Positions 3,167 to 24,298 of a DNA stretch of 63,941 nucleotides are shown in pieces. Numbering within the stretch: position 1 is the stretch's first letter; each line of letters begins with the position of its first letter. The notes under the pieces were generated by a model. That model had not been told where the DNA came from and searched no databases. It worked only from the letters and a program-made list of their open reading frames with translations. A program made the translations under genes and the position numbers. The DNA comes from a bacterium (Candidatus Blackallbacteria) CG13_big_fil_rev_8_21_14_2_50_49_14 (lineage in GTDB: Bacteria; Cyanobacteriota; Sericytochromatia; UBA7694): the NCBI GenBank assembly GCA_002783405.1, contig PFGG01000083.1, forward strand, positions 1 to 63,941, given 5' to 3'.

Positions 3167-4629
3167 TGGGACTCAAGTTCCTTTTTCATTTTAGCTGTTA
3201 AAAAATAGCCACCCGTCTGCGCTGCTTTACCTTTAAATTCGATGAGACCAGCTTCTTTGAGTTGTTGAAGATATCTTTCAATCCGTCTCGCTGAAAACCC
3301 TGTTTTGTGCTGATAGTCAGGGACTCTTTTTCCTTCATCTTGTGAAATCATGCTTAAAAGCTGGCTCAGATTTTTCTTAACCGCTTGAGTTGTTCCGTCA
3401 ATAGCTCCGTCAATAGCTCCGTCAATAGCTCCGTCAATAGCTCCGTCAATTTCCTGTAAGACTGACTTATCTTGGTGATTGAAGAAGGTCAAAGTCACAG
3501 AGTGACTGTCTGTTTTCCATTCCGGTTTTGGTAATCCGGCTTCTTCGCAAGCCTCTAAAATTTTGAGTGTCCCTCTACCAATTTTTTCAATCAAGCCTCT
3601 TAAATAAAAAATATGTGCAATGTCTGGGTTAACAGGCTTTGAAAGGTGATCTTTCTTTAATTCTTGTATTGTTAAGTTTAATTTTCCTGAATTTGTAATT
3701 TCTAATCGATCAGGATAAATTAAAACAGAAACAGTTCCAGATAATTGGGAGTAATCCCGATGAATCAAGGCATTTAATATACCTTCACGTAAAGCTGAAA
3801 TAGGATAAACGAGGTCATTTTTGCGTTGCCATGAATTAGGGCTAAAATAAGTAACAGATGAGACATGTTTGTTTAAAAAATTAATAATATACTCGATATT
3901 ATTAAATAAATGATCTTCTAAAATTTGGTCGTCCAAAAACTGGTCTCCGGTTTTTCCTGTTTTTAAAACAGAGACTCTAATTCTTGTTTGTGGAATATAT
4001 TTTGCAGGATTTTTGACAAATAAAACAACAGCAGCATTTGTAAAATCGCCATTTTGATACAAGCCATAATAACGCATAAAATCAAAAATATCCGTTTTGG
4101 GATCTTTTATTCTATTAATCTCCATGGCCTTATCAATGGTTTTTTGGATCTCAGGTTGGTCCAATTCATCCAGATCAACCCCTAAGACAGAACGCCTTTC
4201 CCAATGAACTTCCGTCAACTGTCGATTGTGAATAAGTTCTGAAATTTGACGGGACGAAGCTTGAACCGTTCTTTCACCGTGGCGGTAATAGATGCTGCCA
4301 CCAAAGACATAAGGTTGTTTTGAACCTGGCCAGACTTTAATTAAGAGAAGTTCTTTTTTTTGATGGGTTTCAATCGAAACCATGACAGGTGCTTCTGGAG
4401 CAATTTCATTCAGCAGGTAATATTCAAGCTCTTGCTTCCATTTTTGAGCGTCTTGAATCCCAATCACTTTTTTATCATCAGAAACACCAATCAACAGATA
4501 ACCTCCTTGTTGATTGAGAAACGAACAAATGACTTTTCCGACAATGTCTTTTCGAACGCTTTCTTTAAACTCAAGCTGTTCGTTCTCACCTTGTTTAAGC
4601 AAATCTTTGATCAATTGATTTGAGTTCAT
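3163..4629 (-). CDS. AlbA_2 / HATPase_c_4 ATP-binding protein with winged helix
   Basis: A 488-residue protein of the COG2865-type family. The N-terminal AlbA_2 (Schlafen AlbA-like) domain includes LEFKES (19-24) and GGYLLIGVSDD (42-52). A GHKL-type HATPase_c_4 module carries the N-box EGILNALIHRDY (282-293) and a GRGTLKI G-box-like stretch (351-357). A (Asp-Gly-Ala-Ile)n linker (about 395-412) leads into a C-terminal winged helix (about 425-475). Proteins of this family occur as stand-alone predicted regulators and in defence islands; the biochemical role is not settled. It overlaps hsdM and the DUF4062 gene by 4 bp each, so it is made together with the restriction complex. Confidence 0.85.
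   Translation of the reverse strand: MNSNQLIKDLLKQGENEQLEFKESVRKDIVGKVICSFLNQQGGYLLIGVSDDKKVIGIQDAQKWKQELEYYLLNEIAPEAPVMVSIETHQKKELLLIKVWPGSKQPYVFGGSIYYRHGERTVQASSRQISELIHNRQLTEVHWERRSVLGVDLDELDQPEIQKTIDKAMEINRIKDPKTDIFDFMRYYGLYQNGDFTNAAVVLFVKNPAKYIPQTRIRVSVLKTGKTGDQFLDDQILEDHLFNNIEYIINFLNKHVSSVTYFSPNSWQRKNDLVYPISALREGILNALIHRDYSQLSGTVSVLIYPDRLEITNSGKLNLTIQELKKDHLSKPVNPDIAHIFYLRGLIEKIGRGTLKILEACEEAGLPKPEWKTDSHSVTLTFFNHQDKSVLQEIDGAIDGAIDGAIDGAIDGTTQAVKKNLSQLLSMISQDEGKRVPDYQHKTGFSARRIERYLQQLKEAGLIEFKGKAAQTGGYFLTAKMKKELESQ
3395..3450. repeat. 12-bp in-frame microsatellite in the AlbA_2 gene
   Basis: Four identical copies of the 12-mer CCGTCAATAGCT, plus a partial fifth, encode Asp-Gly-Ala-Ile repeats in the linker before the winged helix. 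The copies are identical at the DNA level, which points to recent slipped-strand expansion. Units are multiples of three, so copy-number change would lengthen the linker without breaking the frame. Confidence 0.9.
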
Positions 4630-5225
4630 GGTGCTTGCACCCGCATTTGTTCTACAATTTCTTTGATTCTGACCTTATCCTTAAATTGAGTTTCAATACA
4701 GGTCAGAATATCAATCAATTTGAAATACTCATCCACCCAATGACCGACTCGCTCCTGAGGAGGGAGATTGTTTAAAATGGTGTCATTATAAAGTTGAATC
4801 ACCCGAATATCATCCAGTACCGCGTTTTTGCGATATTGGAAGTCGGGATTGATTGTGCCACCTTGATTGAACATATATTGCTTGAGCAATTGACGAGCAA
4901 CACTGATATCTCGATGGGCAATGAACCAACGTGGTTTTTTAAGTTCAATTGCTTTGCGCATTTCATAATGTGTAATGGAGCGTTCCCCATCAACAACAGC
5001 ACCGTATTGTGGGCGAATAATACCAAAAAATAGATCACAGGCTTCGACTGCTTTTAAACAGTTTTCTTGATTCGATAAGCCTGGATGAACAGGAATGGTT
5101 CTTTTATAAGAATTTAAAACAGTGTAACCATATCCCTGAAAAGTGGCACAAATCTGCTCCAACTGGTCTTCAAAGCCATAGATGGTTGAAGCAATCATCA
5201 CTTTTAATCTGGGTCGTCTGCTCAT
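4626..5225 (-). CDS. DUF4062 domain protein embedded in the hsd operon
   Basis: A 199-residue protein whose N-terminus (KVMIAST, then a D-x-F-F-G-I-I-R-P-Q-Y-G strand and loop near residues 64-75, then THYEMRKAIELKKP) matches the DUF4062 domain. That domain has a flavodoxin/TIR-like fold and is found at the N-terminus of many STAND and defence proteins. Here it is almost alone, with a short helical C-terminal tail, suggesting a sensor or adaptor subunit. It overlaps hsdS and the AlbA_2 gene by 4 bp each (ATGA junctions). A NADase or nucleotide-hydrolase activity is conceivable from the fold, but no catalytic residue can be assigned. Confidence 0.8.
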   Translation of the reverse strand: MSRRPRLKVMIASTIYGFEDQLEQICATFQGYGYTVLNSYKRTIPVHPGLSNQENCLKAVEACDLFFGIIRPQYGAVVDGERSITHYEMRKAIELKKPRWFIAHRDISVARQLLKQYMFNQGGTINPDFQYRKNAVLDDIRVIQLYNDTILNNLPPQERVGHWVDEYFKLIDILTCIETQFKDKVRIKEIVEQMRVQAP

Positions 5226-6613
5226 AGAGGAATCATAACTTTCTTAGCTCTCGAAGTCTTGGTTTTCTTGGCTGGTTGGTTCTGCTCCCGCTCCGCTTTG
5301 ATGCGATCTAAAAGCACACTGGCAGGCTCATCATTGGGATCTTGGGGAACTAATTTACCTTCAAAAGCTTGCTTCAAGATACTTTGCCGTAATGCTTCGG
5401 CTTGTTTGAGGCTGTGTTCAATTGATTCTTCGATCTTGTCGCAGACAGAGAGGCGGGATTCTATTTCGGAGACGATGAGGTTTTGTTCGTCAATAGAATG
5501 AGGAACAGGAATAATAATCTCTTTTAAAACATTTGCTGGTATCTGAGGTTGAGCTGTTCCAGATTGTTTTTCTTTTAGCTGCTTATAAAAAATTGGTGAC
5601 GTGATAAATTTCATCAAATATTTATTGTTCAATATGCTTTGGTTTTTAACTCTAAGAATCAACATCCCAGAATTAATTCTAACATCTTTGAATTTTATCC
5701 TCTCATCGTAGAGAGCTACATTTCCCAATGTTCCCCTTGTTGTTATCACAACATCATTTAAGTGAAGTTTTCCTCCTCGTAACTGATCATCTTTTTCTTT
5801 TGAAATAAAAATATTGTCTTCAAAAACAAATCTATCTTCGCGAACATTTTTTGTGGATAAGAATAAGCAATGGCCAGCATCTAAAAATTCATGTTTTTTA
5901 GGATAGTTTTTCCCTCTATCTCCGTCAATAGATTGAATTACTTCGCCTAACTTGAAGCTATGCCACTTTAAATCTTTATCTTTGAACTGAGTTAACAATC
6001 CTTCAAACGCCCATTTTAAAACCGCCTGCCGATACACCTTAAGCTGCTGCTGGGCTGTTTTTAGACTTTCAACGCCCTTGTCCAATTCGCTGAAAAGTTC
6101 TTCAAGTTTGGCGACAATGCGGTGTTGTTCCGAAAAAGGGGGAATAGGAATGTCTAGTTCTTCCAAATATTGCTTGGGAACTCGCCTTTGGCCGACAGCG
6201 CCCGTCATATTTTGAGCGGCATCTTGTCGAGTTTTCGATTGAACTAAATAATAGAATAAATAGGTATTCACAACTGACTTATAACACCTAAAAACGTGAA
6301 ATTCAGTAGAGCCAAAAGCAATTCTGTTCTTTAGTGAATGAACAGTTGCTATTTTTCCGTTTTCCATACAAGGTGTGATTTTTGCAAAAATCACGTCCCC
6401 GTCAGTCATTGGAGTAAACCCTTTTTTCACTTCTGAATACTTTTTAGTTTCAGTTAAATGAATAACATTACTTTCTTCTTCAACTAACTTCATTGGCAAA
6501 AATGAAACTTCTAAGTTGTCATCAATTTCCTCAAAAGGCAATTTTTGATTGATTGCACTGATATGTTTAATTTTTGTGACTTCCCAGTTTGAGGGCATAA
6601 CATTTTCAGACAT
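5222..6613 (-). CDS. hsdS: type I restriction-modification specificity subunit
   Basis: HsdS provides the bipartite DNA recognition of the type I complex. The 463-residue protein has the expected duplicated layout. Target-recognition domain 1 spans about 1-150 and is followed by a conserved helical spacer (PPFSEQHRIVAKLEELF, continuing to FEG). Target-recognition domain 2 spans about 210-385, followed by the second spacer (QNLIVSEIESRL, continuing to QAFEGKLVPQDPNDEPAS). Both halves are intact, so the recognition site should be bipartite. The start lies 2 bp after the hsdR stop, and the stop overlaps the DUF4062 start by 4 bp. Confidence 0.93.
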   Translation of the reverse strand: MSENVMPSNWEVTKIKHISAINQKLPFEEIDDNLEVSFLPMKLVEEESNVIHLTETKKYSEVKKGFTPMTDGDVIFAKITPCMENGKIATVHSLKNRIAFGSTEFHVFRCYKSVVNTYLFYYLVQSKTRQDAAQNMTGAVGQRRVPKQYLEELDIPIPPFSEQHRIVAKLEELFSELDKGVESLKTAQQQLKVYRQAVLKWAFEGLLTQFKDKDLKWHSFKLGEVIQSIDGDRGKNYPKKHEFLDAGHCLFLSTKNVREDRFVFEDNIFISKEKDDQLRGGKLHLNDVVITTRGTLGNVALYDERIKFKDVRINSGMLILRVKNQSILNNKYLMKFITSPIFYKQLKEKQSGTAQPQIPANVLKEIIIPVPHSIDEQNLIVSEIESRLSVCDKIEESIEHSLKQAEALRQSILKQAFEGKLVPQDPNDEPASVLLDRIKAEREQNQPAKKTKTSRAKKVMIPL

Positions 6614-6615
6614 TT

Positions 6616-9390
6616 TTAAGCAGCCAAAGCCTCATTTAATTCTTCAAGAATGCTGTTCATTTCATCTCCAAATAATTGCCACATTTTGCCCCGACCGCCC
6701 TGGGCATCAAAGGGAGTATAGTCCAAGTCATCAATATCGACATGAATAGAAGTAGCGATTTGTTCTTTGAGCATATAAAGCCACTCCATTTGTTCTTTGC
6801 TGAATTTCAGAATACCCGCTTGTTTCTTAAACAGCCATTGCTGAAAATTGCGATCCACCGTTTTATCGTATGCGGTTAAGGTCTCATCAATGCCTGCCAA
6901 TTTGCGAATCAATGCTACCAAAGCTACTAACTCATTTTTTGGCTGACCGCTGACAGTTTCCAATTGCTCATAAGCTTTCCAGATATTGAGTGGGGCCAGA
7001 GTCGGTTTATCTTGAATGAGTTTTTCAGCGACTTCTTTGAGCATTTTGTAGGTCAAATCCCGCCTTTGATATGGTTGACCATAAAATATTTGAAGTGCTA
7101 TAAGCTCGTCCTTTTTACCTTCTACCCACTCAGAAAAGGTTTTGATGGTTTCTTGCGCACGATCTTTATTGTCTTTGTCCCAGCCTGCATGAATCACTTC
7201 ATCCGTATTGACTAGATCAATCTTTTGTTCATGAGATCGGCGCACGTTTTCAATATACAGGTTTAAGTCACCTGTAAAGACGTGAGCTGCTTCATTTTGC
7301 AAGGCTTCTATTTCTTCTTGAATGGCTGCTTGAATTACAGCCGGGGCTTGTCCTTGTTTTTGCTGTTTGATTTCCTGCTCAATGCTTTCCAGAACATCGG
7401 GGTTAAAGGCATTCAAAAGCCCTTTCACGACCTGAGAAATGCTTTGACCCTTGGCTTTTTCTTGAAAAGCTTCCTTTTCTTTGTCGGTCATTTGTTTATC
7501 CAGACGGGTTAGACGGTTCGCCAAGGAAGTAAATAGTTCTTCATCTCTGGCTCCAACCGCCACAGCCGCTAACAGTTCTTTGAGGGCAACACCAGGCTTT
7601 TTCTCCAGTGGGCGGCTATCTGTTTTTAAGCTTTGGGTGACGCCGATGGCATCCACAATCACAAAATGGTCTTTGGCAATTTTAGCTGAAGGAGACACTT
7701 TTTTCAGGTCATCAAAATGAATCACCCGTGTACCTCGGCCTTTCATTTGCTCAAAATAGTTGCGGCTTTTGACGTCACGCATAAAGAGCAAACATTCCAG
7801 TGCTTTAACATCGGTGCCAGTGGCAATCATATCCACTGTGACAGCTATCCGAGGATAATAGTCATTGCGAAACTGAGCTAAAACCGATTTGGGATCTTCG
7901 CTGGCCCGATAGGTGATTTTCTTGCAAAAGCGGTTTTCTTCATCAAACTCTTCACGCACGATTTGGATAATATCATCGGCATGGCTGTCTGTTTTAGCAA
8001 AGATCAGCGTTTTGGGGACTTCAAACTGACCTTGTGAATCCATGCGATCAGGAAACATCTCAGGCAAATGCTCTTTAAATGTGCGAATCACCGTTCGGAT
8101 TTGACTGGGATTTACTATGTCCTTGTCTAATTGTTTGTTGGAATAACTTTCATCTTCATCTTGCATCGCATAGCGTTTTTTGCGGCTCAGGCGTTCCCGA
8201 TGCTCAATGTATTCGCCTTTCCAAAGCGTTCCGCCCTTTTTACTAATTTTGGTTTCAATCAAATACACGTCATAGCCAACATTTACCCCATCCGCAACGG
8301 CCATTTCATGAGAATATTCCGACACCACATTTTGCTTAAAATAGGCAATGGTACGGGCGTCTGGTGTCGCAGTTAGCCCAACTTGAAAGGCATCAAAATA
8401 GTCCAGAACTTGCATCCACAGATTGTAGATGCTGCGGTGACACTCATCTATGACAATGAAATCAAAATATTCAATTGGCAATTTTTCATTGTATTCGACA
8501 GGGGGAACTTCTTTGGGCTGCCAACGCTCATTGGGGTTTTCTTCTTCCGCGCTTTCTTCTAGCTCTTGGCCTTTCAAAACTGCATAGAGCCGTTGAATGG
8601 TGCTGATATACACCTGATTGTCATCAGGAATATGCCGAGACTTTAAGCGATGAACCCCGTAAAGCTCTGTAAATTTGCGATTGTCGTCATTGGGCAAGAA
8701 GGCCATAAATTCTTGTTCCGCCTGCTCACCCAGGTTTTTTGTATCCACTAAAAACAAGATGCGTTTGGCATTGGTGAATTTGAGCAGACGATAAATAAAG
8801 GTAATAGCAGTAAAGGTTTTACCGGAGCCAGTGGCCATTTGAACCAAGGCTCTGGGTTTATTGTGTTTGAATGATTGTTCCAGATTTGAAATCGCGTTAA
8901 TCTGGCACTCTCTTAAGCCTTCAGTGGGAAGGTTGCTCAGTTGCAATAAAGATGCCCGTAGGGATTCAGACTTTTTTAACCATTCTTGCAGGGTCTTCGG
9001 TTTGTGGAAGGTAAAGACATTGCGTGCTCTCGGTTTGGGATCTCTAAAGTCCGTAAAAGTGGTGACTTCTGCGGTACTAACGTAGACAAAGGGTAATTTT
9101 TGATTATTGAGGTACTTTAATTTAGCAGCCGCATAGTCTTCTGCTTGATCTTCATGTACTGAGAGTCTGTAACCTTCGTCTTTGGCTTTGGCTTCAATCA
9201 CGCCGACTGGTTTTCCTGCCACAAAAAGCACATAATCGGCTGGCCCCACATCTGTTTGATATTCTCTAACAGCGACACCCAAACCAGCATTTATGTTTAT
9301 ATTCTTTTTATTTTGAATCAACCAGCCACAAGCAATTAATTGTTTATCAATCTCGTCTCTCGCTCGTTGTTCTGGATTTTGATTCATCAT
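6616..9390 (-). CDS. hsdR: type I restriction endonuclease / translocase subunit
   Basis: HsdR translocates and cleaves DNA at unmodified sites. The 924-residue protein has an N-terminal HSDR_N PD-(D/E)XK nuclease (Asp52 in ADY, Glu66-Ala-Lys68), a superfamily 2 helicase with Walker A ATGSGKT (186-192) and DECH box (315-318), and a C-terminal EcoEI-type helical region. All visible motifs are intact. It is the first gene of the operon. An AAGGA ribosome-binding sequence precedes a double ATG (9390 and 9387), so the exact start may be the second. A degenerate attC-like hairpin lies about 45 bp upstream. Confidence 0.95.
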   Translation of the reverse strand: MMNQNPEQRARDEIDKQLIACGWLIQNKKNININAGLGVAVREYQTDVGPADYVLFVAGKPVGVIEAKAKDEGYRLSVHEDQAEDYAAAKLKYLNNQKLPFVYVSTAEVTTFTDFRDPKPRARNVFTFHKPKTLQEWLKKSESLRASLLQLSNLPTEGLRECQINAISNLEQSFKHNKPRALVQMATGSGKTFTAITFIYRLLKFTNAKRILFLVDTKNLGEQAEQEFMAFLPNDDNRKFTELYGVHRLKSRHIPDDNQVYISTIQRLYAVLKGQELEESAEEENPNERWQPKEVPPVEYNEKLPIEYFDFIVIDECHRSIYNLWMQVLDYFDAFQVGLTATPDARTIAYFKQNVVSEYSHEMAVADGVNVGYDVYLIETKISKKGGTLWKGEYIEHRERLSRKKRYAMQDEDESYSNKQLDKDIVNPSQIRTVIRTFKEHLPEMFPDRMDSQGQFEVPKTLIFAKTDSHADDIIQIVREEFDEENRFCKKITYRASEDPKSVLAQFRNDYYPRIAVTVDMIATGTDVKALECLLFMRDVKSRNYFEQMKGRGTRVIHFDDLKKVSPSAKIAKDHFVIVDAIGVTQSLKTDSRPLEKKPGVALKELLAAVAVGARDEELFTSLANRLTRLDKQMTDKEKEAFQEKAKGQSISQVVKGLLNAFNPDVLESIEQEIKQQKQGQAPAVIQAAIQEEIEALQNEAAHVFTGDLNLYIENVRRSHEQKIDLVNTDEVIHAGWDKDNKDRAQETIKTFSEWVEGKKDELIALQIFYGQPYQRRDLTYKMLKEVAEKLIQDKPTLAPLNIWKAYEQLETVSGQPKNELVALVALIRKLAGIDETLTAYDKTVDRNFQQWLFKKQAGILKFSKEQMEWLYMLKEQIATSIHVDIDDLDYTPFDAQGGRGKMWQLFGDEMNSILEELNEALAA

Positions 9391-10896: not shown

Positions 10897-11864
10897 GGCG
10901 CAGGGCCTAAAATCTAGTTTTTTCTTATGCGCCTTAAATTGATTCATAGTCTAATTTCTTGCCTCACCCGCAATATTTTTACAGCCTAAAACGCGCATTA
11001 TAACTTGGTTTTAACCGCACAAGTCCGCCGCAACAAGTAATTATCCAGGGGCAGGATAATCCCATCACCACCCCCAGCCCCCTTCTCAACACAAATCCCC
11101 ATCAGCTTTTCAGCCTTGCGGTATAACTCCACTCTGTCCCCCAAATCAGCGAAATTTAGCATTTTCCAAGCAAGCCCCCAAGGTCCATCTAACACGCCAA
11201 AAATCAACTTATCCTGTTTCCGTATAACTCCACAAATCGGAGAATTATACTTCTGAATGGATGATCCCCTGTGAATCTTTCTTCCGTATAACCCCACCCC
11301 AGGAAGAATTATCCACTCAAGTAATTTTCCTCTGAAGAATTCTTCGCTTTCTGGATAATTCCTCTTTTTGAAGGGTTATTCGCTTTCTGGATAACTCCGA
11401 AAACGGAGAATTCACCACCCATCAAAAAACATCTTTCAGTAAGAGAAGGTATTCAGATTAATGCAAGATCAAAACCACACCCATAGAATACAATTCAATC
11501 GAAAAAGAATCAAGATCCCATCAGTACCTCAAAAATTTGTCACATAAGTACAAATTTTTAACAAATAAATGAAATCTGTTAAATTGTATTTTAATTGTCA
11601 TAATTCAATAGAAATCGCGTAAGGCAAAGCATTACTCTTGGAACATTGAATGCCTCAAAATCGAGAATTCATCGCTTTCTGGATAAGCCACAAAATCTGG
11701 AGTTATACAGAAGAAGCACTATTAAAGGTTAATAAATAACTAAAATAAACTTAATTATTGGTAAATTCAAGCAAGACAGATCTCCATCCTCAGGATAGAA
11801 AATTATCAGCGGAAAATAATTCCGCCTTATAAATCAAGTGTTAGAGAAAGAGAGTTTCAATTCC
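10897..11864. other. about 0.97-kb non-coding boundary with palindromic repeats
   Basis: No credible gene is visible. 10890-11034 resembles the 9461-9610 segment (TTATGCGC, then GCGCATT, GGTTTTAACC and a terminal GCCGCAAC). From 11035 on there is a family of imperfect palindromes built on GGATAACTCC or GTATAACTCC, followed by GGAGAATT or GGAGTTATAC (for example near 11220-11255, 11385-11412 and 11680-11710). The 14-mer CGCTTTCTGGATAA occurs three times (11345-11358, 11381-11394, 11673-11686). The DNA is strongly AT-rich from about 11410 to 11830 and marks the change from island to core-like sequence. A minus frame at 10998-11297 is discussed under rejected items. Confidence 0.6.
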
Positions 11865-12335
11865 ATGCGTCAATTTATTATGCTTTCACTCAGTTTTTCA
11901 ATTCTGGCAGCTTGCCAAGGCCCCACACCTTTGGCGGTAGCCCCCCGCTCCCTTCAAGCAGCCAGCGTCAGCCGTGCTTCTGCTCCCCAGATTCAAAACC
12001 CCACCCAAGCCCTTCCCACCAATGCCAATCAGGCTGATGCGCTCTATGGTTTTCGCAAACCTGTGGGCACCATGAAAATTGAGCTCTATTCCTCCACACA
12101 GACAGTTGACCGAGAATCAGCCATGCTGCATATTAAAGAGTTCTTTCGCAAATATGTCGACCAGAACGATATCGTCAACTACCAAGTCGTAAACAAAGAC
12201 GGTGTTCCAGATACCTTTTTTATCAATATCTTTGGCGGCAATAAAACCTTCGTGGTACAAAAATTGCTTCCCGATTTGAGATACTATCTGACTCAACGTA
12301 CCCGCATTAGAAATCTCGACTATTACTCCAACTAG
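11865..12335 (+). CDS. small lipoprotein of unknown function
   Basis: Starting at the ATG at 11865, the product is 156 residues with a lipoprotein signal (MRQFIMLSL, then ILAAC lipobox at about Cys17). An in-frame GTG at 11838 would add nine residues before the signal; the purine-rich AGAGAAAGAGAG just upstream of 11865 supports the shorter form. A Ser/Ala/Gln-rich linker follows, then a folded domain with an INIFGG motif near the C-terminus. The family is not recognised. The gene is monocistronic and ends at a strong terminator. Confidence 0.75.
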   Translation: MRQFIMLSLSFSILAACQGPTPLAVAPRSLQAASVSRASAPQIQNPTQALPTNANQADALYGFRKPVGTMKIELYSSTQTVDRESAMLHIKEFFRKYVDQNDIVNYQVVNKDGVPDTFFINIFGGNKTFVVQKLLPDLRYYLTQRTRIRNLDYYSN

Positions 12336-12421: not shown

Positions 12422-13180
12422 TTAAAGCGCACCCGCTTTGCGCGCTTTTTTTTCAAGATCCCGGTTCTGACCCAATTCTTTAAAACTCAAGAGCTGTTTG
12501 CCCGGAAAAGCATTCACAAACACCATATGCACAGCCCCTGGCCAGGTCAGTATCCAGTTGCGGCCATCCTGACTGGCTTGGTAAAGCCCATTCTGGGCCT
12601 GAACCACCAATTCGTGGTTCATATGTTCAGACAGATAGCCAATCGCATCGTCTTTGGGAAAAGGGCGGCCTTCAGAAGCATAGTCGCGGTTCTGAGCAAC
12701 CAACCAACGGTGAAGTTTCAAAAGATCTGAAAAAGCAGCAAGCCATGGGAAACGCCTGACCTCACGAAGGGGGACGCGCCAGGAGGAAGCAAAACGGGAA
12801 TTGTTCACATTCAAAGTTCTGCCATTGACAAAAACCTGAGATATTTCTTCGTAGCGTGCAGAGATCGCCAGACTCTGCACCCAGACCGACATCGCTGCCA
12901 ATCCGGTTTCAGAATGCAAATAGAGTTGAAAATACGTAGTCACATTGGCGGTGAAATTTTCTATCCGATAAGCCCCCTGCACCTCAAAGCCTTCAGCCTC
13001 GATTGCTTCTCGGCGGGAGTCGAGCCATTCCTGAATCTCAGGAGATTCCTGCTCTAAAAGGGGGGTGATCTGCACCCGTCGCGTCACCCAATGTTGGGCT
13101 TTGACAATCGGTATGCCCACCACCAGGGGCGCGAGCAGATAAACGGCAAGCATGCCGCCAAGTGTTTCAATCAAGGCCAT
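12422..13180 (-). CDS. hypothetical membrane-anchored protein
   Basis: A 252-residue protein. Residues 1-28 form a hydrophobic N-terminal segment (GGMLAVYLLAPLVVGIPIV) that is probably an anchor rather than a cleaved signal. The rest is a soluble alpha/beta domain with many aromatic residues and no motif that I recognise. It is the last gene of a three-gene minus-strand operon, 9 bp after the TPR gene. Partnership with the envelope-type proteins upstream is inferred from position only. Confidence 0.7.
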   Translation of the reverse strand: MALIETLGGMLAVYLLAPLVVGIPIVKAQHWVTRRVQITPLLEQESPEIQEWLDSRREAIEAEGFEVQGAYRIENFTANVTTYFQLYLHSETGLAAMSVWVQSLAISARYEEISQVFVNGRTLNVNNSRFASSWRVPLREVRRFPWLAAFSDLLKLHRWLVAQNRDYASEGRPFPKDDAIGYLSEHMNHELVVQAQNGLYQASQDGRNWILTWPGAVHMVFVNAFPGKQLLSFKELGQNRDLEKKARKAGAL

Positions 13181-13189
13181 GGCAATACC

Positions 13190-15430
13190 TCACTGCTTAA
13201 GTAAAATCTGTAATTGAGCACGGGCTTCAGTATGGCTGCCATCCAGTTCAAGCACGCGTTGTAGCGCTTGACGGGCCTGTGTTTTCTGCCCCTGGGCCTG
13301 ATAAACCAAGCCCAGATTAAACCAGGCCTTGAGATAATCAGGTCGCAACTTAACTGCTTTTTCAAGTGCGCTCTGAGCTTCAGGCCATTTTTCTTCCTGC
13401 ATGGCCAAAACAGCAAAATTATACTGCAAAGTGGGGTTTTCAGGGGCCAGCCGAAGACCTTCTGTCAGAAATCGCCGTGCGCCGCCATAATTGCCCAATT
13501 GAATCGCCGTCTGGCCCAAATCGTTGAGGATATTTACATTCTGCTCATCCTCGTTCCAGGCCTTGAGCAGATAAAACCAACGGTATTTGAGTTGTTTTTC
13601 TGGGTTTTGCATCGCTTGGGAATCAATTTTAAGATAATCGCTAAAGGCTTCCAAGGCCCCGGCATAGTTTTCTTCCGAGGCATAAATACCTGCCAGCACC
13701 TGATACGCTTCGCCATAATAGCTGGGGTCAGAGAGCAGTTCCTGGTAAATCGGGCGGGCTTCATTCAGCGCGTCCTGCATCAGATAGACCGTTCCCAGCA
13801 TTTGCAGAATCATCGTCCGGCTGAGATTGCGGGGATTCTGGGGCCAATGCGCCAGGGCACGTTTTAAATATTCCTGAGATTTGGGCAGATACGCTTGCCC
13901 CAGGCCCAAATACATCAAACCACGTGAAAACTCAAGCCAGGTATCCCCGGGTCTGCGTGCTTCCAAACTTTGATAGAGCTTTTCTGAGGCTTCAAAATCC
14001 TGCATCCCAGACAGTATGTCGGCTTTCTCGACCAATAAATCGAAATCATCGGGGGAAATTTTCAAGGCCCGATCAATCACTTCAAGGGCTTTTTCATGCT
14101 GACCCAAGGCATTGTAAAACGAAGCGAGCCCATTTAAGACTTCGGGTGATTCGGCCCCCATCTGCTCAACCCGCTTGAGCAGCGTCAGGGCTTCATCATT
14201 GCGTTGCAGGCGTACCAAAACCCCCAATTTGGCCAGGGGCACAAAGGGGTTCTCGGGCAAATCGAGAGCGGCTTCATCAAGTAGTTTTTCAATCCAGCCA
14301 AAATCGGGTTGCATGCGAAAGGCTTCCTGCAGAATGCCAATGCTGGCCAGGTTGAATTTGAGCCAGGGGTCATCAAAATTGGCACCCAGACTTTTTAAGT
14401 CTGCGCGTAGGGCCTTGATATCTATATTCGCCTGTTGAATTCGGGTTTCGATATATGCTGACTGCGCCCCCGTATCGCGGGGATTGATCCGCATCGCTTT
14501 GGTGCTCAGCTCCAGCGCTCGGTCGCGGTTCCCCCGGCTTTGCTCTAACCGGGCCAGGGCACTCCAGGCCAAGGGCAATTCAGGATTCAGGGCCAGGGCC
14601 TGTTGGGCGTATTGCTCAGCCAAGGCTTCATCGCCAGGGCCTTTGACCTGAAATCCCTGGGCAGGCGGCAAAACCACCAATTGACGGCGTTTGGCCGCCA
14701 ATTGAGAATAGGCATCGGCCAGACCGGCATAGGCCAAGGCATAATTCGGGTCGGCAGCCAGTGAAGCCTTAAACGAACGAATGGCTTCCTGCGGGGGCAG
14801 ACCCATACGCTGTTTTTGCAAGCCCTCTAAATAAAAGCGATGGGCATCGGTGGAGGAAGTTTCAGCAAAGGTCTTTTCGAGTTTCTGCACATCCTGCTCA
14901 GAGGCTTTAACCGGCATTTGGGCAATCAGCTGCCGGGCCAGGTCTTTTTGCAGACGAAACAAATCCTGAAACGAGCCCTCGACCTGGGTGGCCCATTTGC
15001 GCTCGATCTTGCCGGTTTCAACGCGCACAAAGCGCACATTGGCCTGCAATTCTGTGCCCACTTTCTGAAACGAGCCCAGAATCACCACCTCAGCCCCCAA
15101 TAATTTGCCCAGCATCGGCGCACTGCTTTCATCCACCAGGGCACTCTGGCCAAACTGCTGCTCTTTCATGACCTGGCCCAATTGCGAACGCTCAATCAGC
15201 TGCAGGCTCTCAACCTTGATCAGGCCCATGGTCAGGCTCTCTGAAAAACTATCCGAAAGCCAGGCATCGTCTTTGTTTGCGCTGATATTCTGAAAGGGCA
15301 GAATCACCACCCGCAGCGGGCTGGTCTGGCTCTTCTCGATTTGAGCCGCCTGGGCAGAAAGCGGCAGGGCCGCAAAATACGTCAGATTCAAAACCAGCCC
15401 CAAAAGCGGGCTGAGGAAGCCTTTAGACAT
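13190..15430 (-). CDS. exported CsgG/FlgO-like domain plus TPR protein
   Basis: A 746-residue protein with a Sec signal peptide (about 1-29, cleavage near AQAAQ). Residues about 38-170 (VVILPFQNIS, then IERSQLGQVMKEQQFG, then LLGAEVVILGSF) match the nucleotide-free ABD-like fold of CsgG, FlgO and LpoB-type envelope proteins. From about 190 to the end, repeated 34-residue TPR units (ALNPELPLAWSALARLEQ and similar) form a long superhelix. The combination suggests a periplasmic scaffold for an envelope or secretion complex. It follows the 1287-residue gene by 38 bp and precedes the membrane-anchored protein by 9 bp. Confidence 0.8.
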   Translation of the reverse strand: MSKGFLSPLLGLVLNLTYFAALPLSAQAAQIEKSQTSPLRVVILPFQNISANKDDAWLSDSFSESLTMGLIKVESLQLIERSQLGQVMKEQQFGQSALVDESSAPMLGKLLGAEVVILGSFQKVGTELQANVRFVRVETGKIERKWATQVEGSFQDLFRLQKDLARQLIAQMPVKASEQDVQKLEKTFAETSSTDAHRFYLEGLQKQRMGLPPQEAIRSFKASLAADPNYALAYAGLADAYSQLAAKRRQLVVLPPAQGFQVKGPGDEALAEQYAQQALALNPELPLAWSALARLEQSRGNRDRALELSTKAMRINPRDTGAQSAYIETRIQQANIDIKALRADLKSLGANFDDPWLKFNLASIGILQEAFRMQPDFGWIEKLLDEAALDLPENPFVPLAKLGVLVRLQRNDEALTLLKRVEQMGAESPEVLNGLASFYNALGQHEKALEVIDRALKISPDDFDLLVEKADILSGMQDFEASEKLYQSLEARRPGDTWLEFSRGLMYLGLGQAYLPKSQEYLKRALAHWPQNPRNLSRTMILQMLGTVYLMQDALNEARPIYQELLSDPSYYGEAYQVLAGIYASEENYAGALEAFSDYLKIDSQAMQNPEKQLKYRWFYLLKAWNEDEQNVNILNDLGQTAIQLGNYGGARRFLTEGLRLAPENPTLQYNFAVLAMQEEKWPEAQSALEKAVKLRPDYLKAWFNLGLVYQAQGQKTQARQALQRVLELDGSHTEARAQLQILLKQ

Positions 15431-15468
15431 GCTATTTACTCCTGTTGATCACCCTTCCAGCCCAAGCC

Positions 15469-18400
15469 CTATTTTCTGGCGGGAGGGGTTTGCTGGTAAG
15501 TATAGTTCAGTTTGACCTGACCCTCAGGGCTGAGTTCAGCGTGGGTAATCTGAATACCGGGGTCCATCTGCTTCTGAACCAAATCGTTCAAATCCAGTTT
15601 GAAAACAGATTCGCCATCCGTGCGCTGGTAGTTGATATGCTCAGCCGTCAATTGATTGGCCAATTGGTCGGATAATTTATCCTCGCCATCGACTACCTTG
15701 TTGATGATTTCCGCCAAAAGCCCCTTGAGATGCAGGTGGTCAATTTCCACCACCAATTGGTTGTTCTCTATCTTCGGAGTGATATCCAGCTTGGCTGAAA
15801 TATTCATGACCTTTTTCGGTTTTTTGAACAGACTGGAGAGAATCGGAATATTCACTTCGGTGCCATTATTGCCTGTTTTGCCTTTGGCGCGCACCTCATA
15901 GGTCGCGTTTTTGATTTCGATTTGCCCATTGGGCAAAACATCCAGCTCGACATTTTTCAAGCCTGCATCCTGAAGCTGTTGGGTAATGCTGCGATCAATA
16001 AAATTGCGCAGGTCAGGGTTCAAACCAAAGGCAATTTCGCCATCTTTAACCCGGAAGCCCTGCTGGTCGGCTTCGGCTTCAGCCCGCCAGTGCACAGCCC
16101 CCATATTGACCTTTTCAGGTTTGCGACCCAAATCCAAGGTCATCACAGCATTGTCGAGTTTGGTGTCTTTGACCACTTCAAAGCCCTGAAAATTGAAATC
16201 CTTATCAAAGCGGATTTTCATATTTTCGTAGTGAATATCCGCCTGGTTAAAATTCGAGAAATGGGCGTTGATTTGGCTCAGGGCCTGTTTAATACCGGCC
16301 TGGGCCTGAGCGCCCAGTTCCGGGCGGGCACTGAATTTTTGCAGGAAGGTCATCAGCTTTTCCTGCTTGGTATTGATATCCCCCGAGAGGTTGATTTCAA
16401 ACCCGGTGGGAGTGGTATGAAAGAGGCCATTGCGGTTTTGCAACTGCACATCATCCACGCTCACGTCAAAATTGAGTTCCTTGAGGTCAAAACCGCCATC
16501 GGGGCGAATTTGCACTTTTCCAGAAGCACCTTCCGGGCTTTGCAGGGTAAAGCCATCCACCAGGCCATTGAGCTTGAGTTTCTCACCGGTCAGCTCCACC
16601 CCCTGGGCATTGGGCTGAATCCGCAGTTGGCCTGAAGATTCAGCCTGAATCGGATAGCCATTCAGTTGACCCTCCAGTTTCAGGGCGGAATTCTGGCCGG
16701 TCAAACCGCTGAAGCTGAGTTGGCCGGTTCGTGGATCCAGTACCGCTTCGCCTTCAACCTTGAAATTTTTCAAATCCAGATTGCCCATTTTGAGGCTGAT
16801 CGTGCCACCTGGGCTGCGGAAATGCACTTTTCCCTGGGCGTCTTGAGAGATTTCAACCGGGCCTTGGGTTGAAAGCTGGTCAATGCCCTGTTTGGGCAAA
16901 CTGGCTGAAACGGGCTGATCCCAGGAGATACTCTGTTTGAGCGGGTCAACGCGTACAGGGCCCTGCGAACTGAGGTCTTTGAGTTGGATCCCGTCGAAGC
17001 TGGCGTTCAGGCTCAGACTTTGACCAGGCAGGGGTTCTGCCACAAAGCTTCCCCCCTGGGTCTGAACTTTGACCTGGCCATTTTTAAGGCTCAAATCTTT
17101 AACCGCAACGCCTGAAATCGAGCCAGATTTCAATTCCAGCGGGCGGTCTGCGTGGCTTGAAAAGTTCAAAGCCCCAGTCTTTTCATCAAAGGCCATGCGG
17201 CCACTGAAGGAGACCCCCTGCAGATCAATGCCCTGTTGGGCATCGACATAATCAATCACAACTGGATTTTTAGAAGTGGTTTCGACATTGAGCTGACCGG
17301 GGGTATAATCCAGAGCCAGATTGCCTTTAACCGCAAGGCCCATGCCGGTTTGCAACTGCAAATCTTGGGTCGAGCTGAAACGAACCTGCCCCCTGGGGGA
17401 GACCGAGACATTGCCCGCCCCTTTCAAGGATTTTACTTCGAGATCGCCCAGTTTGCCCTGGGCTGAAACATGGGCGTTTTTCAATTCCAAGCCTTTGGCG
17501 GGATCCCAATTGAGTTGGCCAGAGCCACTCAGACGGGTCAGATTCAAATCTCCCATTTGCCCGTTCAGCGAAAAGCGCTGGGCATTTAGGGCCAGCGTGC
17601 CCCGGTTTAAATCCGATTGGGCTGTGCCTGTGACCTGCAGGTTTTTAAACTGAGCCCCAGGCAAAGTAATCGCAGCCAGGCTGATCGTGGGTTGGGTCTT
17701 GCCATTGGCGCCAATATTCAGACTGCCTTTGCTGGCATCCAACTGGAATTGAGAGGGCCCCAGGCTCAGGTTTTGCAGATTGACAGATTCTTTCTGGCCA
17801 GCCGGGGTAAAACTGCCTGAATAGCTGATTTTCTTGCCCTGGGGAATGGTAAACGATAATTTATCTGGCTTGGCAGGATCAACCGCCAAATCACCGCTTA
17901 ATTTGAGCTGGCGGATATTCAGGGTCCCCTGGGGGGTGCTGACCGCCCCCTTGAGGCTGATGTCCTGGGCATTGAGATGGTAAATATTGTCTTTGAGTTC
18001 ACCGTTCAAAACACCGTGTTCGGCATTCAGGGCAAGTTTCACACCTTGAGCTTCAAGGGCCAGATTCTCAAATTTGAGTTGGCCCAATTCCTGATCAAAT
18101 TTTGTGATTTTGCCCTGGGGATTGGTTTCGGCTTCAAACTTCAAACCACTCAATTCAAAATTGCCCCCGGCCCCAATCTGCTGGCCCGTAAACTCTTGAA
18201 TTCGGGCTTTGAGCTGGGCCTGTTCGGGCTGGGTGACATTGACCTTGAGATTGAGTTCTCCAGCGACCTTGGCACTGAGGTCATTGCCCAGCTCAGCATC
18301 CACATGCAGATTCAGGGCATCGGCCCCCTCTGCATCTGTGCTGGCCACAGCGCCCTTGGGAGCCGTACTGCCAATCACCTGCGCGCCTTTGAAATTGAGT

Positions 18401-19332
18401 TCCAGATTGCCCTGGGAATCCAAACGAAAACCATTGCCCTGGGCAGGGTTCAGTTTGATCTCTTCAACCTTGAACGAGGTCTGAGCAGAGAGTGGAATTT
18501 CTTTTAAAAGCGGATTGTTCTGTAAATCGGGGGAAAGTTGGTATTCAGTCAGACTTTGGCTGTCAACTTTTAAACCCAGATTGCTGCCCAATTGTTTGCG
18601 AATGAGATTATCGACTGCCTGCTGGGGATCATAACCCAGTTTCTTGCCCAGCCAATCGGCGGCATCGGCCAGGCCACCGGCCAAGCCACCCACTTCTACT
18701 TTTAATCCGGTGCCAGAGGGTTTCAGGGTAATTGAGCCCAGGCCCACCCCATAGCTGACATCAATCCGGTATTTTTGATCTTGAGAATAGGTATTCAGTT
18801 TGAAACTCAGGCCGGTTTCTTTTTCGGCCTGGGCCAGGGCCATTTCAATCATGGCACGATCGACCACGACCTTGCCCTGGAGCGTGCCGGTAATATCCCG
18901 TTTTGATTTGCTTTCAATCCCATCTTTGTCTTGAACATTCAGGTCTAAATCTGCCCGCACCAAACTTTGATCGAGGTGGTCGAGTTCAAAGCCCGCAATT
19001 TCAAGCGTGCGCAGGGTGCCGTCATCGGTGCGCAGATAGGCTTTGGTGCCGCCCAAACTGGCCACATCTTTGGGGGAGAGAGAAATATTGGCCGTCCCGT
19101 CTTCAAAATCTGAGCCTTTGATCGCTTTGCCGGCTTCTGTGGTGGCCACGGAATAGACATTGTATTTGCCATCGGCCCGTTTCAGAATCATTTCTGAACC
19201 ACTGTGGCCTTTGGCGAAGGCTTCGGCTTCTTCAGCCGTGAGCCCGGTTTTGAGGGGTGTTTTTTGCGCTTTGAGTAAATCCTGGCGATCCATCATGCCA
19301 CGATCGTGGGTTCCAAGCCGAAGTTCTCCCAT
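15469..19332 (-). CDS. giant cysteine-free repetitive protein with LmeA/DUF2993-like ends
   Basis: A 1287-residue protein in which I see no cysteine. No classical signal peptide is visible at the chosen start. Two regions (about 190-330 and 1130-1287) have the hydrophobic-strand pattern of DUF2993/LmeA phospholipid-binding-like domains (for example the region starting DLRNFIDRS). Between them lie many Gly/Gln/Leu-rich beta repeats of roughly 35-45 residues (LNLTRLSGSGQLNWDP, LEVKSLKGAGNVSVSP and similar) that resemble the beta-groove of AsmA/TamB/VPS13-type bridge proteins. First gene of the operon with the CsgG-like TPR protein. Lipid or envelope function is inference from fold impressions. 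Confidence 0.7.
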   Translation of the reverse strand: MGELRLGTHDRGMMDRQDLLKAQKTPLKTGLTAEEAEAFAKGHSGSEMILKRADGKYNVYSVATTEAGKAIKGSDFEDGTANISLSPKDVASLGGTKAYLRTDDGTLRTLEIAGFELDHLDQSLVRADLDLNVQDKDGIESKSKRDITGTLQGKVVVDRAMIEMALAQAEKETGLSFKLNTYSQDQKYRIDVSYGVGLGSITLKPSGTGLKVEVGGLAGGLADAADWLGKKLGYDPQQAVDNLIRKQLGSNLGLKVDSQSLTEYQLSPDLQNNPLLKEIPLSAQTSFKVEEIKLNPAQGNGFRLDSQGNLELNFKGAQVIGSTAPKGAVASTDAEGADALNLHVDAELGNDLSAKVAGELNLKVNVTQPEQAQLKARIQEFTGQQIGAGGNFELSGLKFEAETNPQGKITKFDQELGQLKFENLALEAQGVKLALNAEHGVLNGELKDNIYHLNAQDISLKGAVSTPQGTLNIRQLKLSGDLAVDPAKPDKLSFTIPQGKKISYSGSFTPAGQKESVNLQNLSLGPSQFQLDASKGSLNIGANGKTQPTISLAAITLPGAQFKNLQVTGTAQSDLNRGTLALNAQRFSLNGQMGDLNLTRLSGSGQLNWDPAKGLELKNAHVSAQGKLGDLEVKSLKGAGNVSVSPRGQVRFSSTQDLQLQTGMGLAVKGNLALDYTPGQLNVETTSKNPVVIDYVDAQQGIDLQGVSFSGRMAFDEKTGALNFSSHADRPLELKSGSISGVAVKDLSLKNGQVKVQTQGGSFVAEPLPGQSLSLNASFDGIQLKDLSSQGPVRVDPLKQSISWDQPVSASLPKQGIDQLSTQGPVEISQDAQGKVHFRSPGGTISLKMGNLDLKNFKVEGEAVLDPRTGQLSFSGLTGQNSALKLEGQLNGYPIQAESSGQLRIQPNAQGVELTGEKLKLNGLVDGFTLQSPEGASGKVQIRPDGGFDLKELNFDVSVDDVQLQNRNGLFHTTPTGFEINLSGDINTKQEKLMTFLQKFSARPELGAQAQAGIKQALSQINAHFSNFNQADIHYENMKIRFDKDFNFQGFEVVKDTKLDNAVMTLDLGRKPEKVNMGAVHWRAEAEADQQGFRVKDGEIAFGLNPDLRNFIDRSITQQLQDAGLKNVELDVLPNGQIEIKNATYEVRAKGKTGNNGTEVNIPILSSLFKKPKKVMNISAKLDITPKIENNQLVVEIDHLHLKGLLAEIINKVVDGEDKLSDQLANQLTAEHINYQRTDGESVFKLDLNDLVQKQMDPGIQITHAELSPEGQVKLNYTYQQTPPARK

Positions 19333-20997: not shown

Positions 20998-21546
20998 ATG
21001 ACAAGCGCACAAACAGCCATTCTCCGCAAGTCCACCCAAGCCACCTGTATGCTGCGTCTGGACCCCGTTGAAGAAGTCATGTTTTTTGTGCGCCGCTTTC
21101 TTCAGAACCCTGAAACGATTTATACCCTGCTCAACCTGATCGAGCGCCTGATTGATCATGAAGCCCATTTTTCACAAGCTGAAAAGGAATGGGTCGAAAC
21201 CTATCTGCAACTGGCCCTGCGTCAAACCCGCCAAGGCACCCAGCTCTATGACCGCCGTGGCCTGGCCCTGGATACCCCTGAACTGCTGCATATTCGCGAT
21301 CAAATTTTACATTTGACCGAAAAACAAGCACTTGCCCTGGTTCAAGCACCTCGCCAACACTCCCAGAACAAGGCTTTTAAGCAAGTTTTAACAAAAAACA
21401 GCTATGATCAACTCAGCCAGGAAGAAACCCAACTCCTCCGGGAGGGCTATTTAAAGGTCAGACAGGGACAGATTTTTACCTTGAGTGGCCGTTTAATTGC
21501 ATCTCCTTCCTGGACCCAACGCTGGATCTGGAAGTTAATCAGCTAA
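20998..21546 (+). CDS. hypothetical protein, first gene of a coupled three-gene operon
   Basis: A 182-residue, largely helical soluble protein with no signal peptide and no motif that I recognise. The N-terminal third includes EEVMFFVRRFLQNPETIYTL. The C-terminus ends in Trp-rich WTQRWIWKLIS, which could bind a partner or membrane surface. Its TAA stop overlaps the ATG of the next gene by one base (TAATG), so translation is coupled. The operon runs to 24298 and all three products are unknown, suggesting one complex. Confidence 0.75.
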   Translation: MTSAQTAILRKSTQATCMLRLDPVEEVMFFVRRFLQNPETIYTLLNLIERLIDHEAHFSQAEKEWVETYLQLALRQTRQGTQLYDRRGLALDTPELLHIRDQILHLTEKQALALVQAPRQHSQNKAFKQVLTKNSYDQLSQEETQLLREGYLKVRQGQIFTLSGRLIASPSWTQRWIWKLIS

Positions 21547-22169
21547 TGCCAAATGTTCAGAACAATCCGCCCGCAAATCCCGGCTTAATCGCTCCCGGTC
21601 AACTCTGGAGCCCCAAACCGCAACCGGTTGTGCCTGCGCAAGCGCCCGGCACACCTGCCCCCAGCACACCTGCCCCCGGAACGCCTTCGGGTCTCAACAG
21701 CCCCGACCAATTGCGCCAGCTCATGAACAATAAAATGCCCCCGATAGGTCAGATTCCTGGCCAAGTACCTTTGGTGGGCCCTGCCCCCAGCGATTTAAAA
21801 GGGCAACTCGGGCAGCTTCAGAACCTCATGAAAACTGCCGATCAGCAGACCCTCGCCCCCTATGGCGTGGTCGTACAAAGCAATGCCCAAGGTCAGGTCA
21901 CGGGCTATCTGCTCAATGGTCAGCCTGCCACCGCCCAACAGGTTCAACAGCATCTTCTGCCCCTCTCTACCCGTCTTCACAAGGAACTGCTGCAGACCAA
22001 GGCCACGGTCGATCAGGAATTTAACCAGTTTATCCAGCGCACGCAAAGCCAATTTGCACAAATGAACCCCGTTGAGCAGAATGCCGTCAAAATTCAGCTT
22101 CAGGCTGTTCAGTCGATTTATCAGGAGTTCCTGAATCGTTTAAGTCAGGTGGATAATTTAATCAAATGA
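21546..22169 (+). CDS. hypothetical Pro/Gln-rich protein with helical C-terminus
   Basis: A 207-residue protein. Residues 1-60 are disordered, with a direct repeat of APSTPAPGT/APGTPAPSTP type. Residues about 65-130 are Leu/Gln-rich, and residues 140-207 form a probable coiled coil (LHKELLQTKATVDQEFNQF and following). No signal peptide. It overlaps the upstream stop by 1 bp and the downstream start by 4 bp (ATGA). The disordered-plus-coiled-coil plan is shared with the next gene, so a structural or scaffold role is the simplest guess. Confidence 0.7.
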   Translation: MPNVQNNPPANPGLIAPGQLWSPKPQPVVPAQAPGTPAPSTPAPGTPSGLNSPDQLRQLMNNKMPPIGQIPGQVPLVGPAPSDLKGQLGQLQNLMKTADQQTLAPYGVVVQSNAQGQVTGYLLNGQPATAQQVQQHLLPLSTRLHKELLQTKATVDQEFNQFIQRTQSQFAQMNPVEQNAVKIQLQAVQSIYQEFLNRLSQVDNLIK

Positions 22170-24298
22170 TGTTCAATAGCAATTTAAAGACCCAACCCCT
22201 CGACCCCAAGGTCTTGCAGTCGCTTGAACCGAGCCCGCCCCGTTCTCAGGTGCCTGCCACAGCGCCCTTGAGAGAACCTTCCCTGCTTTCAGACAGAATT
22301 CAAACCCAAGCGCCCCCCAGTGGTGTGCCCGCCCAGAGCATCTCACTGGCAGCCCCCAGCCCGCAGCTTTCAGGTCAGGAAGCCACCTTGCTGCTGAATA
22401 TCAGCGAAAAGCTGGGCAATCTTTACAAAACCGACAAAGCCAGCTTTCAAAATGCCATGCAGGCGCTTGAAAGTGTGACGCGCAGTGGCAACGTAGATTT
22501 CAGCTGCCTGAGTGCCCAACAGCAGCAGTTGCTCTCCTCTCTCGGACTGACCTCACAGAATACAGCCCAGGTCTACCAACAGCTCTATCAGCTGCTGCTG
22601 CCCACGCAGCAGAGCCAGACCAGCAATGCCTTTCAAACGGTGCAAAGCTCGGTCACCAGTTTTCTCTCCAATATCGACCTCAAGCAACAGACCTTTCACC
22701 AGATTGAAACCCAGGCCCGCGATCTTTCCTGCATTCAGGGCGTGGTCTCCAATCTCTCAGCCAGCAGCATTCAAAATCTGCTCGCCGACCAGACCGCTGG
22801 GGTTTTTGACCTGGCCGTCAGCAAAATTACCAGCCAGAACTTTAATATTCAATCGGGTATGGACTATACCCTGGGCCATTTTGTGGTGCTTTCACAGGAT
22901 TCTCCCCAAACCCTGCAAGCGGTTGAGGGCATTCTGCAAAAAGTGCGCAGTGATCAGGCCGTCAGCCCCCAGGATCGCCAATTGCTGAACAAATACGGTC
23001 TGAATATCACCCCCGAAAACAAATTGGAAACCCTTGAGCGCAAACCGCTTTCTCTCCAAGAGGTTCAAAACCTGGAGTCTGTGGTCTACAGCATGCAGGA
23101 CCCCTCTCAGGATTACCAGAAAGTGCTGCTCGCCAGCGCTGACGTGATCCGTCAGTCTAAAAAATTAGAGGAATTGGGCCAAAGAGCGACCTTTGAGGTA
23201 GCTCAGGTTCAAAAAACAACCACCGAAGTGGTCACCCAGAACCAGGCCCTGCTGCAAACCCACCAGGACACCAACCAGATCAATGCCAAATTGCAGACCG
23301 CCCAGAGCCAGGCCCAGCAATTGCAAACTGTGATTACCTCTTCCCCAAGCTTGAGTGTAGGCGCAGCCGCCTCTCCCAGCTTGGATATCAGCCCGATTTT
23401 TCTGGCTCAATGGAATATCCGAATTGAAAAAGGGGCTGAAGGTTCAAAAATCTTTATTGGCAACCGCCAAGCCAGCCCATTAGAACTGATGCAGTATTTG
23501 GGCCAATTATTGCAAGAACAGCAAGCCACGATTCAATCCATGGCCGCTGATCTGGCGCGCAAAAAAAGCGAAGCCCTGAAAGCAACCGCCAATTTGGCCC
23601 AAAGCACGCAAAAATTGGAAACCCAAACTGAGCAGTTAGAAAATACCCGCAAAGAAATCCAGACGGAGACCCTCAAACTTCAGGATTTGGAACTGGTAAG
23701 GCTGGATGTGATCAAAGAAGCCAGTCCCCATCTCAAACCTGAAGAACTTGAACTTGTCAAAACCGTGATCGACCCTGCGGTCAAACAAACGGTCAAAACC
23801 GTTCAGACCAAAATCGCGAAACTCGATCAGGAAATTGGCAAAACCTTGCAGGCCGCTCACCAGGCCATTCAGGAATCACAGTCGGTTCAGGAAATGGTCA
23901 CCCGTGATGCCCGCCGTTGGGAGCAAACGCTCTCGCAGGCCCATGATTTGGATCAAAGCATTGACCAAACCCTTGCCAAATTGCCTTCTGTTAAAACAGA
24001 TAAGCCCAGCTCTGAAAAGGTTGCTGAAGAAAACAAACTTCAAGCACAGCCTGAAGAGTATCAATCGCCTTCGCTCTTGCCTGAAAATACAGATTTTGAA
24101 GCCGATCCTCTCAAGCTGAAACAGTCTGAACAGCGCAAAGCTGAAAAGAGCATTGAGCAGGGGCATATGGAGCGCAAGCACCAGCAGGAAATCCAGGAAG
24201 AAGCCCGTCAGGCAGAGCGCCTGAATCAAAAACGGGCCGACTTGGACAAGGAAATCTTCCAGCAGGAACAGAAACGCCTGCGCAAAGAAGAAATCTAG
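22166..24298 (+). CDS. large coiled-coil protein of unknown function
   Basis: A 710-residue, Gln-rich protein. Residues 1-70 are disordered and Pro/Ser-rich; residues 70-340 are helical with Asn/Gln-rich segments; residues 345-600 are strong coiled coil (QAQQLQTV, LARKKSEALKATANLAQ, VKTVQTKIAKLDQEIG); the charged tail (about 640-710) is a Lys/Glu/Gln coiled coil ending RLRKEEI. No signal peptide, membrane segment or enzymatic motif. It is the last gene of the operon and converges, 2 bp apart, with the subtilase gene on the other strand. Confidence 0.75.
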   Translation: MMFNSNLKTQPLDPKVLQSLEPSPPRSQVPATAPLREPSLLSDRIQTQAPPSGVPAQSISLAAPSPQLSGQEATLLLNISEKLGNLYKTDKASFQNAMQALESVTRSGNVDFSCLSAQQQQLLSSLGLTSQNTAQVYQQLYQLLLPTQQSQTSNAFQTVQSSVTSFLSNIDLKQQTFHQIETQARDLSCIQGVVSNLSASSIQNLLADQTAGVFDLAVSKITSQNFNIQSGMDYTLGHFVVLSQDSPQTLQAVEGILQKVRSDQAVSPQDRQLLNKYGLNITPENKLETLERKPLSLQEVQNLESVVYSMQDPSQDYQKVLLASADVIRQSKKLEELGQRATFEVAQVQKTTTEVVTQNQALLQTHQDTNQINAKLQTAQSQAQQLQTVITSSPSLSVGAAASPSLDISPIFLAQWNIRIEKGAEGSKIFIGNRQASPLELMQYLGQLLQEQQATIQSMAADLARKKSEALKATANLAQSTQKLETQTEQLENTRKEIQTETLKLQDLELVRLDVIKEASPHLKPEELELVKTVIDPAVKQTVKTVQTKIAKLDQEIGKTLQAAHQAIQESQSVQEMVTRDARRWEQTLSQAHDLDQSIDQTLAKLPSVKTDKPSSEKVAEENKLQAQPEEYQSPSLLPENTDFEADPLKLKQSEQRKAEKSIEQGHMERKHQQEIQEEARQAERLNQKRADLDKEIFQQEQKRLRKEEI

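Follow-up and report, generated by a model that had tools for sequence, protein, structure and literature searches.

The CG13 genome encodes a giant protein of 1287 residues, one member of a previously undescribed family of long proteins with a beta-rod. The two-ended form of this family was detected in a single order of Candidatus Sericytochromatia, within the non-photosynthetic sister class of cyanobacteria. The best single reading, still a tentative one, is that the giant is a soluble and probably cytoplasmic-side lipid-handling beta-rod, independent of the CsgG/TPR gene pair beside it. We prefer this reading because its N-terminal end domain (ND) is tied to phospholipid-type enzymes and its middle is predicted to form an amphipathic beta-rod.

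Within the window, i.e., the whole 63,941-nucleotide stretch of contig PFGG01000083.1 that was analyzed, the giant gene (15469..19332) lies in a run of three adjacent minus-strand ORFs, with an ankyrin gene 109 bp upstream of it. The other two ORFs, which follow the giant gene after successive gaps of 38 and 9 bp, encode an exported 746-residue protein (13190..15430) and a membrane-anchored 252-residue protein (12422..13180). The 746-residue protein carries a signal-peptide-like N-terminus, a CsgG-like N-terminal region (PF03783, 31.3 bits versus the Pfam cut-off of 20.8, a partial match to profile positions 5-98 of 210) and matches to TPR families, while a single hydrophobic segment (KD 2.15) is present at the N-terminus of the 252-residue protein. 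These features, together with the absence of cysteine from the giant (0 versus about 10 expected at the window's rate of 0.78%), bear out what the first-pass annotation had reported of the three genes and their positions. The cysteine count is also 0 in both neighbors, and the 746-residue protein therefore cannot be a lipoprotein. A putative lipoprotein with an ILAAC lipobox is encoded on the plus strand (11838..12335) and belongs to the conserved neighborhood of the CsgG/TPR gene. Elsewhere in the window, positions 1658-9390 hold type I restriction-modification genes (HsdM, HsdS, and HsdR, assigned by eye), with two genes inserted between HsdM and HsdS, one of which resembles an AlbA/Schlafen-type ATP-binding protein.

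The start of the giant is secure, since an in-frame stop lies 27-25 nt 5′ of its ATG and its N-terminal module is conserved nearly from the first residues on; this stop also rules out a signal peptide missed upstream. A signal peptide or membrane helix was looked for in the giant and neither was found, unlike in its two neighbors, and its N70 maximum KD was -0.21, compared to 2.39 for the LmeA protein of the same genome. The gene is real, given that an orthologue in a sister species (genome G001) is 73% identical and that the pair evolves under purifying selection (dN 0.21, dS 1.6). Orthologues were found in six other genomes of the same order, i.e., in 7 of the 59 genomes searched including CG13, and some of their rods are longer, by 193 inserted residues in G004 and by 243 in G005. 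Searches of Pfam, NCBIfam, PHROG, and PDB sequences returned no credible match to the giant. A phage or defense origin was likewise rejected, with no match in PHROGs or PADLOC.

Four regions were delineated in the giant, all on the minus strand. Residues 1-100 (19033..19332) form a 'GxxDxG...GSEMILK...YNVYSV' module that is common to other signal-less proteins of the order and is missing from some giant orthologues (G002 and G005). The ND, defined by an alignment (A5) and an HMM, covers residues ~105-415 (18088..19020) and is followed by the beta-rod middle (residues ~416-925; 16558..18087), supported by AF2 and strand amphipathicity, and by a C-terminal end domain (CD; residues ~926-1287; 15469..16557), defined by an HMM and modeled by AF2 with low confidence. 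The AF2 model of residues 102-1287 was built from an alignment of only two sequences (with orthologue L022) and reached a mean pLDDT of 50 and an overall pTM of 0.38. Both ends mostly scored below 60, and a Foldseek search with the poor C-terminal model was uninformative. The most confident part spans residues ~431-881 (16690-18042), where 10-residue blocks mostly scored between 60 and 84 and where the middle is modeled with many long antiparallel strands, the longest having 17 residues.

The rod strands are amphipathic according to this model, as the hydrophobic alternation between strand faces amounted to 2.81 compared to a shuffled mean of 1.93 and was reached in 0 of 1,000 shuffles. The first-pass annotation had described a beta-repeat middle; its beta-rich character is supported, whereas the repeats are degenerate. 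The rod self-alignment scored 160 against a maximum of 125 for a 5-column-block null and was not separated from a 10-column-block null, and a regular tandem repeat was rejected since no single period emerged. In Foldseek searches, the best plausible PDB match of the rod was LptH, an LptA-type LPS-transport protein (probability 0.90, TMt 0.42, but E = 0.1), and no significant RBG, AsmA, or VPS13 match was found. The only two matches with an E value below 0.001 were to teneurin, at low probability. The middle of the giant is best described as a beta-meander predicted with moderate confidence.

The ND occurs in at least eight genes of the CG13 genome and was detected in 9 of 146 genomes of the phylum, all within the same class, Sericytochromatia. 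Four of the CG13 proteins are two-ended giants, namely, the window protein C83 (1287 residues), C32 (1955), C52 (2058), and C64 (1229), and all four are cysteine-free and signal-less. The CD HMM matches C32, C52, C64, and a protein of another genome (G006:C5) with i-E values of 8e-5 to 2e-8. In other members, the ND is fused to PLD domains (C39, C13, and C25 in the CG13 genome, and also in G001, G011, and G016) in which both HKD (HxKxxxxD) motifs are intact; the nearest NCBIfam models of these fusions are cardiolipin synthase and ClsB, with scores below the cut-offs. The ND is also joined to EF-hands in C84, and the C21 ND gene, apparently split into two ORFs (L156 1558-3708), is possibly a decaying PLD-type paralogue. 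T2SSN/GspN, a family described as AsmA-like (PMC12802150), weakly matches the C-terminal region of one family member (E = 0.00057, below the cut-off). The ND and CD are thereby defined as two previously unannotated domain families, along with the lineage-specific N-terminal module. This module of ~65-100 residues was seen in many signal-less proteins of the order (window 19033-19332, L036, L037, L083, L086, L089, L092, L097, L100, L104, and L105), where its fusion partners include a C92-like amidase domain and coiled coils, among others, and it is possibly a sorting or docking domain. Further signal-less proteins of the window (21546-24298 and 35718-36860) have N-termini rich in proline and glutamine as well as coiled-coil-like stretches, a style that recalls the N-termini of giants in relatives.

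The ends of the giant had been read in the first-pass annotation as DUF2993/LmeA-like, a claim that our comparisons did not sustain. The Pfam LmeA profile did not match the giant and matched 1 of 10 family members at an E value of 0.076, while an HMM built from 31 LmeA sequences of the phylum gave the giant an E value of 0.16, within the shuffled controls. Profile-profile comparison with LmeA by hhalign scored 25.1 for the CD and 19.1 for the ND, compared to block-shuffled maxima of 26.5 and 24.7. LmeA proteins are moreover described with a signal sequence or N-terminal anchor (PMC6791001), and no such hydrophobic N-terminal segment is present in the giant, which we therefore rejected as a member of this family. 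A TamB homologue was rejected in the same way: Pfam TamB gave no hit, the hhalign score of 24.9 fell inside the null (16.7-32.8), and the N-terminal inner-membrane anchor typical of TamB/AsmA was not found. Ordinary proteins of both kinds are encoded in the CG13 genome, LmeA at C61 and TamB at C75, each with an N-terminal hydrophobic segment. Cysteine depletion extends to the periplasmic TamB of the class, and the lack of cysteine in the giant would be compatible with export and with a cytoplasmic location alike.

As for how such a protein might work, the rod would present a continuous hydrophobic face shielding acyl chains, and the ND, perhaps with the CD, would present a lipid or dock on the membrane at its cytoplasmic face, such that the giant would move or scaffold phospholipids on the cytoplasmic side. 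Its mode of action would resemble that of repeating-beta-groove or beta-taco lipid-transfer rods, to which no homology was detected. From the beta-meander model with its amphipathic strands, the shared end domains of the family, the LptH fold match, the ND-PLD fusions, the rod insertions, the GspN match, and the absence of a signal or anchor, we infer lipid handling; counted against it are the null comparisons with LmeA and TamB, the two-sequence AF2 alignment, the low-confidence ends, the lack of a significant RBG, AsmA, or VPS13 match in Foldseek, and the cysteine depletion that periplasmic TamB shows too. A more specific version, in which several paralogues serve in the cytoplasm as bridge-like rods for lipid transfer, having evolved independently as a counterpart of VPS13/ATG2 with a docking domain shared with cardiolipin-synthase-like enzymes, seems to us distinctly improbable. 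To our knowledge, the bridge-like carriers of lipid known to date in bacteria, AsmA/TamB and Lpt, are periplasmic. Signal-less rods of ~1200-2100 residues, present in several copies per genome and sharing the ND with cardiolipin-synthase-like enzymes, would point either to lipids being moved in an organized way on the cytoplasmic side or to an unrecognized export route in this sister class of cyanobacteria.

It is possible, although somewhat doubtful, that the giant is instead a structural protein with no role in lipid handling. Its long beta-repeat body would then serve as a scaffold, a filament, or a rod of the adhesin type, and it would assemble through its end domains. The absence of homology to the lipid-transfer families tested is consistent with this view, degenerate repeats and zero cysteines suit structural rods, and many Foldseek matches of the rod are single-layer or beta-propeller proteins with no common function. 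The repeated fusion of the ND to cardiolipin-synthase-like PLD enzymes argues against it.

Also unlikely is that the giants are substrates of a non-Sec export route. The export signals would reside in the common N-terminal module or in disordered N-termini, and the giants, the PLD fusions, and the amidase-like proteins would act beyond the cytoplasm or within other cells. This would accommodate the module's presence in signal-less proteins that also contain a C92-like amidase domain or, in G006, a predicted outer-membrane-barrel-like domain, as well as the complete absence of cysteine from four giants and the EF-hand-like loops of some members. However, cardiolipin-synthase-like domains are normally membrane-associated. 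Non-flagellar type III export was rejected because both FliP loci of the CG13 genome reach the flagellar FliP cut-off and both type III apparatuses classify as flagellar, and the family-2 genomes keep giants despite a single FliP. Contractile-injection export was rejected since the two sheath loci examined in the CG13 genome sit among phage-like structural genes; this genome was seen to hold a pair of related tail clusters of phage-like appearance (L120 and L121), with genes of sheath, tube, and baseplate type. The G006 protein with the barrel-like domain (L162 2855-4162) is signal-less, matches the N-terminal module weakly, has the barrel-like domain at its C-terminus, ends in Phe, and directly precedes a 1353-residue two-ended giant (4162-8223), an order reminiscent of TamA/TamB.

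The gene neighborhood bears on whether the giant works with the genes beside it. On contig C14 of G001, the TPR protein (55% identity), the 252-residue protein (37%; 163679-164413, immediately after the TPR gene), and the divergent lipoprotein (55%) are kept together without the giant, whose orthologue is placed on contig C53, flanked by unrelated genes and at least 180 kb away even if the contigs are assumed to abut. That orthologue is near an aminotransferase/amidohydrolase pair, which in the CG13 genome is near the paralogous giant C64 (noted at L023 13705-16712 and L158 12899-15913). The CsgG/TPR protein, the 252-residue protein, and the lipoprotein form a conserved neighborhood of which the giant is not a conserved partner. 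The three-gene arrangement is peculiar to the CG13 genome, the only one for which co-transcription is plausible. G002, G005, and G006 contain the giant and lack a match to the 252-residue protein, their assemblies being fragmented. There are several CsgG/TPR paralogues, the 746-residue protein among them, and a second such gene (C39, CG13 genome) adjoins an ND-PLD gene divergently. A simple simulation gave P values of ~0.0001 for two TPR/ND adjacencies and 0.02 for one (post hoc, assuming 4,800 genes); no such adjacency was seen in G001. Because only the neighbors have signal-like or membrane segments, they and the giant would not share a compartment on present evidence. The envelope lipid-transfer or assembly operon proposed in the first-pass annotation, taken here to mean that the giant would span the periplasm between the 252-residue membrane protein and the exported CsgG/TPR protein, can draw on the shared strand, the short gaps, and the more-than-chance C39 adjacency. 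It is largely refuted by the sister genome, the giant being signal-less as well, and is very improbable; the lack of co-occurrence of the three genes in that genome is among the refuting outcomes that the first-pass annotation itself had named. What stands of that proposal is a long beta-sheet, perhaps lipid-handling protein, as suggested by the meander and the ND shared with cardiolipin-synthase-like enzymes.

Among known systems, the 746-residue neighbor resembles CsgG (PF03783) only over the first half of the profile, continues into TPRs, and has no cysteine. The ends of the giant are modeled as alternating helices and beta strands, loosely like LmeA/DUF2993 (PF11209) in their order, as far as low-confidence models allow, whereas the LmeA of the CG13 genome has an N-terminal hydrophobic segment and the giant has none. 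Cardiolipin synthase ClsB and the PLD superfamily provide the domain type carried by the ND paralogues, the giant itself having no PLD domain. Proteins of the AsmA/TamB beta-taco type (PF04357 and PF05359) are implicated in lipid transport. Like the giant as modeled, they are large, cysteine-poor, and built on an extended beta-sheet of amphipathic strands; unlike it, they have an N-terminal anchor, and there is no detectable sequence homology. The RBG unit comprises five strands and a loop (PMC7613979). This unit was not seen in the giant, which has no fold or sequence match to the superfamily and in which a groove is only proposed here, but members such as VPS13 and ATG2 are, like it, non-exported beta-meander rods of variable length. 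At best, therefore, the giant may work like beta-taco or RBG rods rather than belong to either family.
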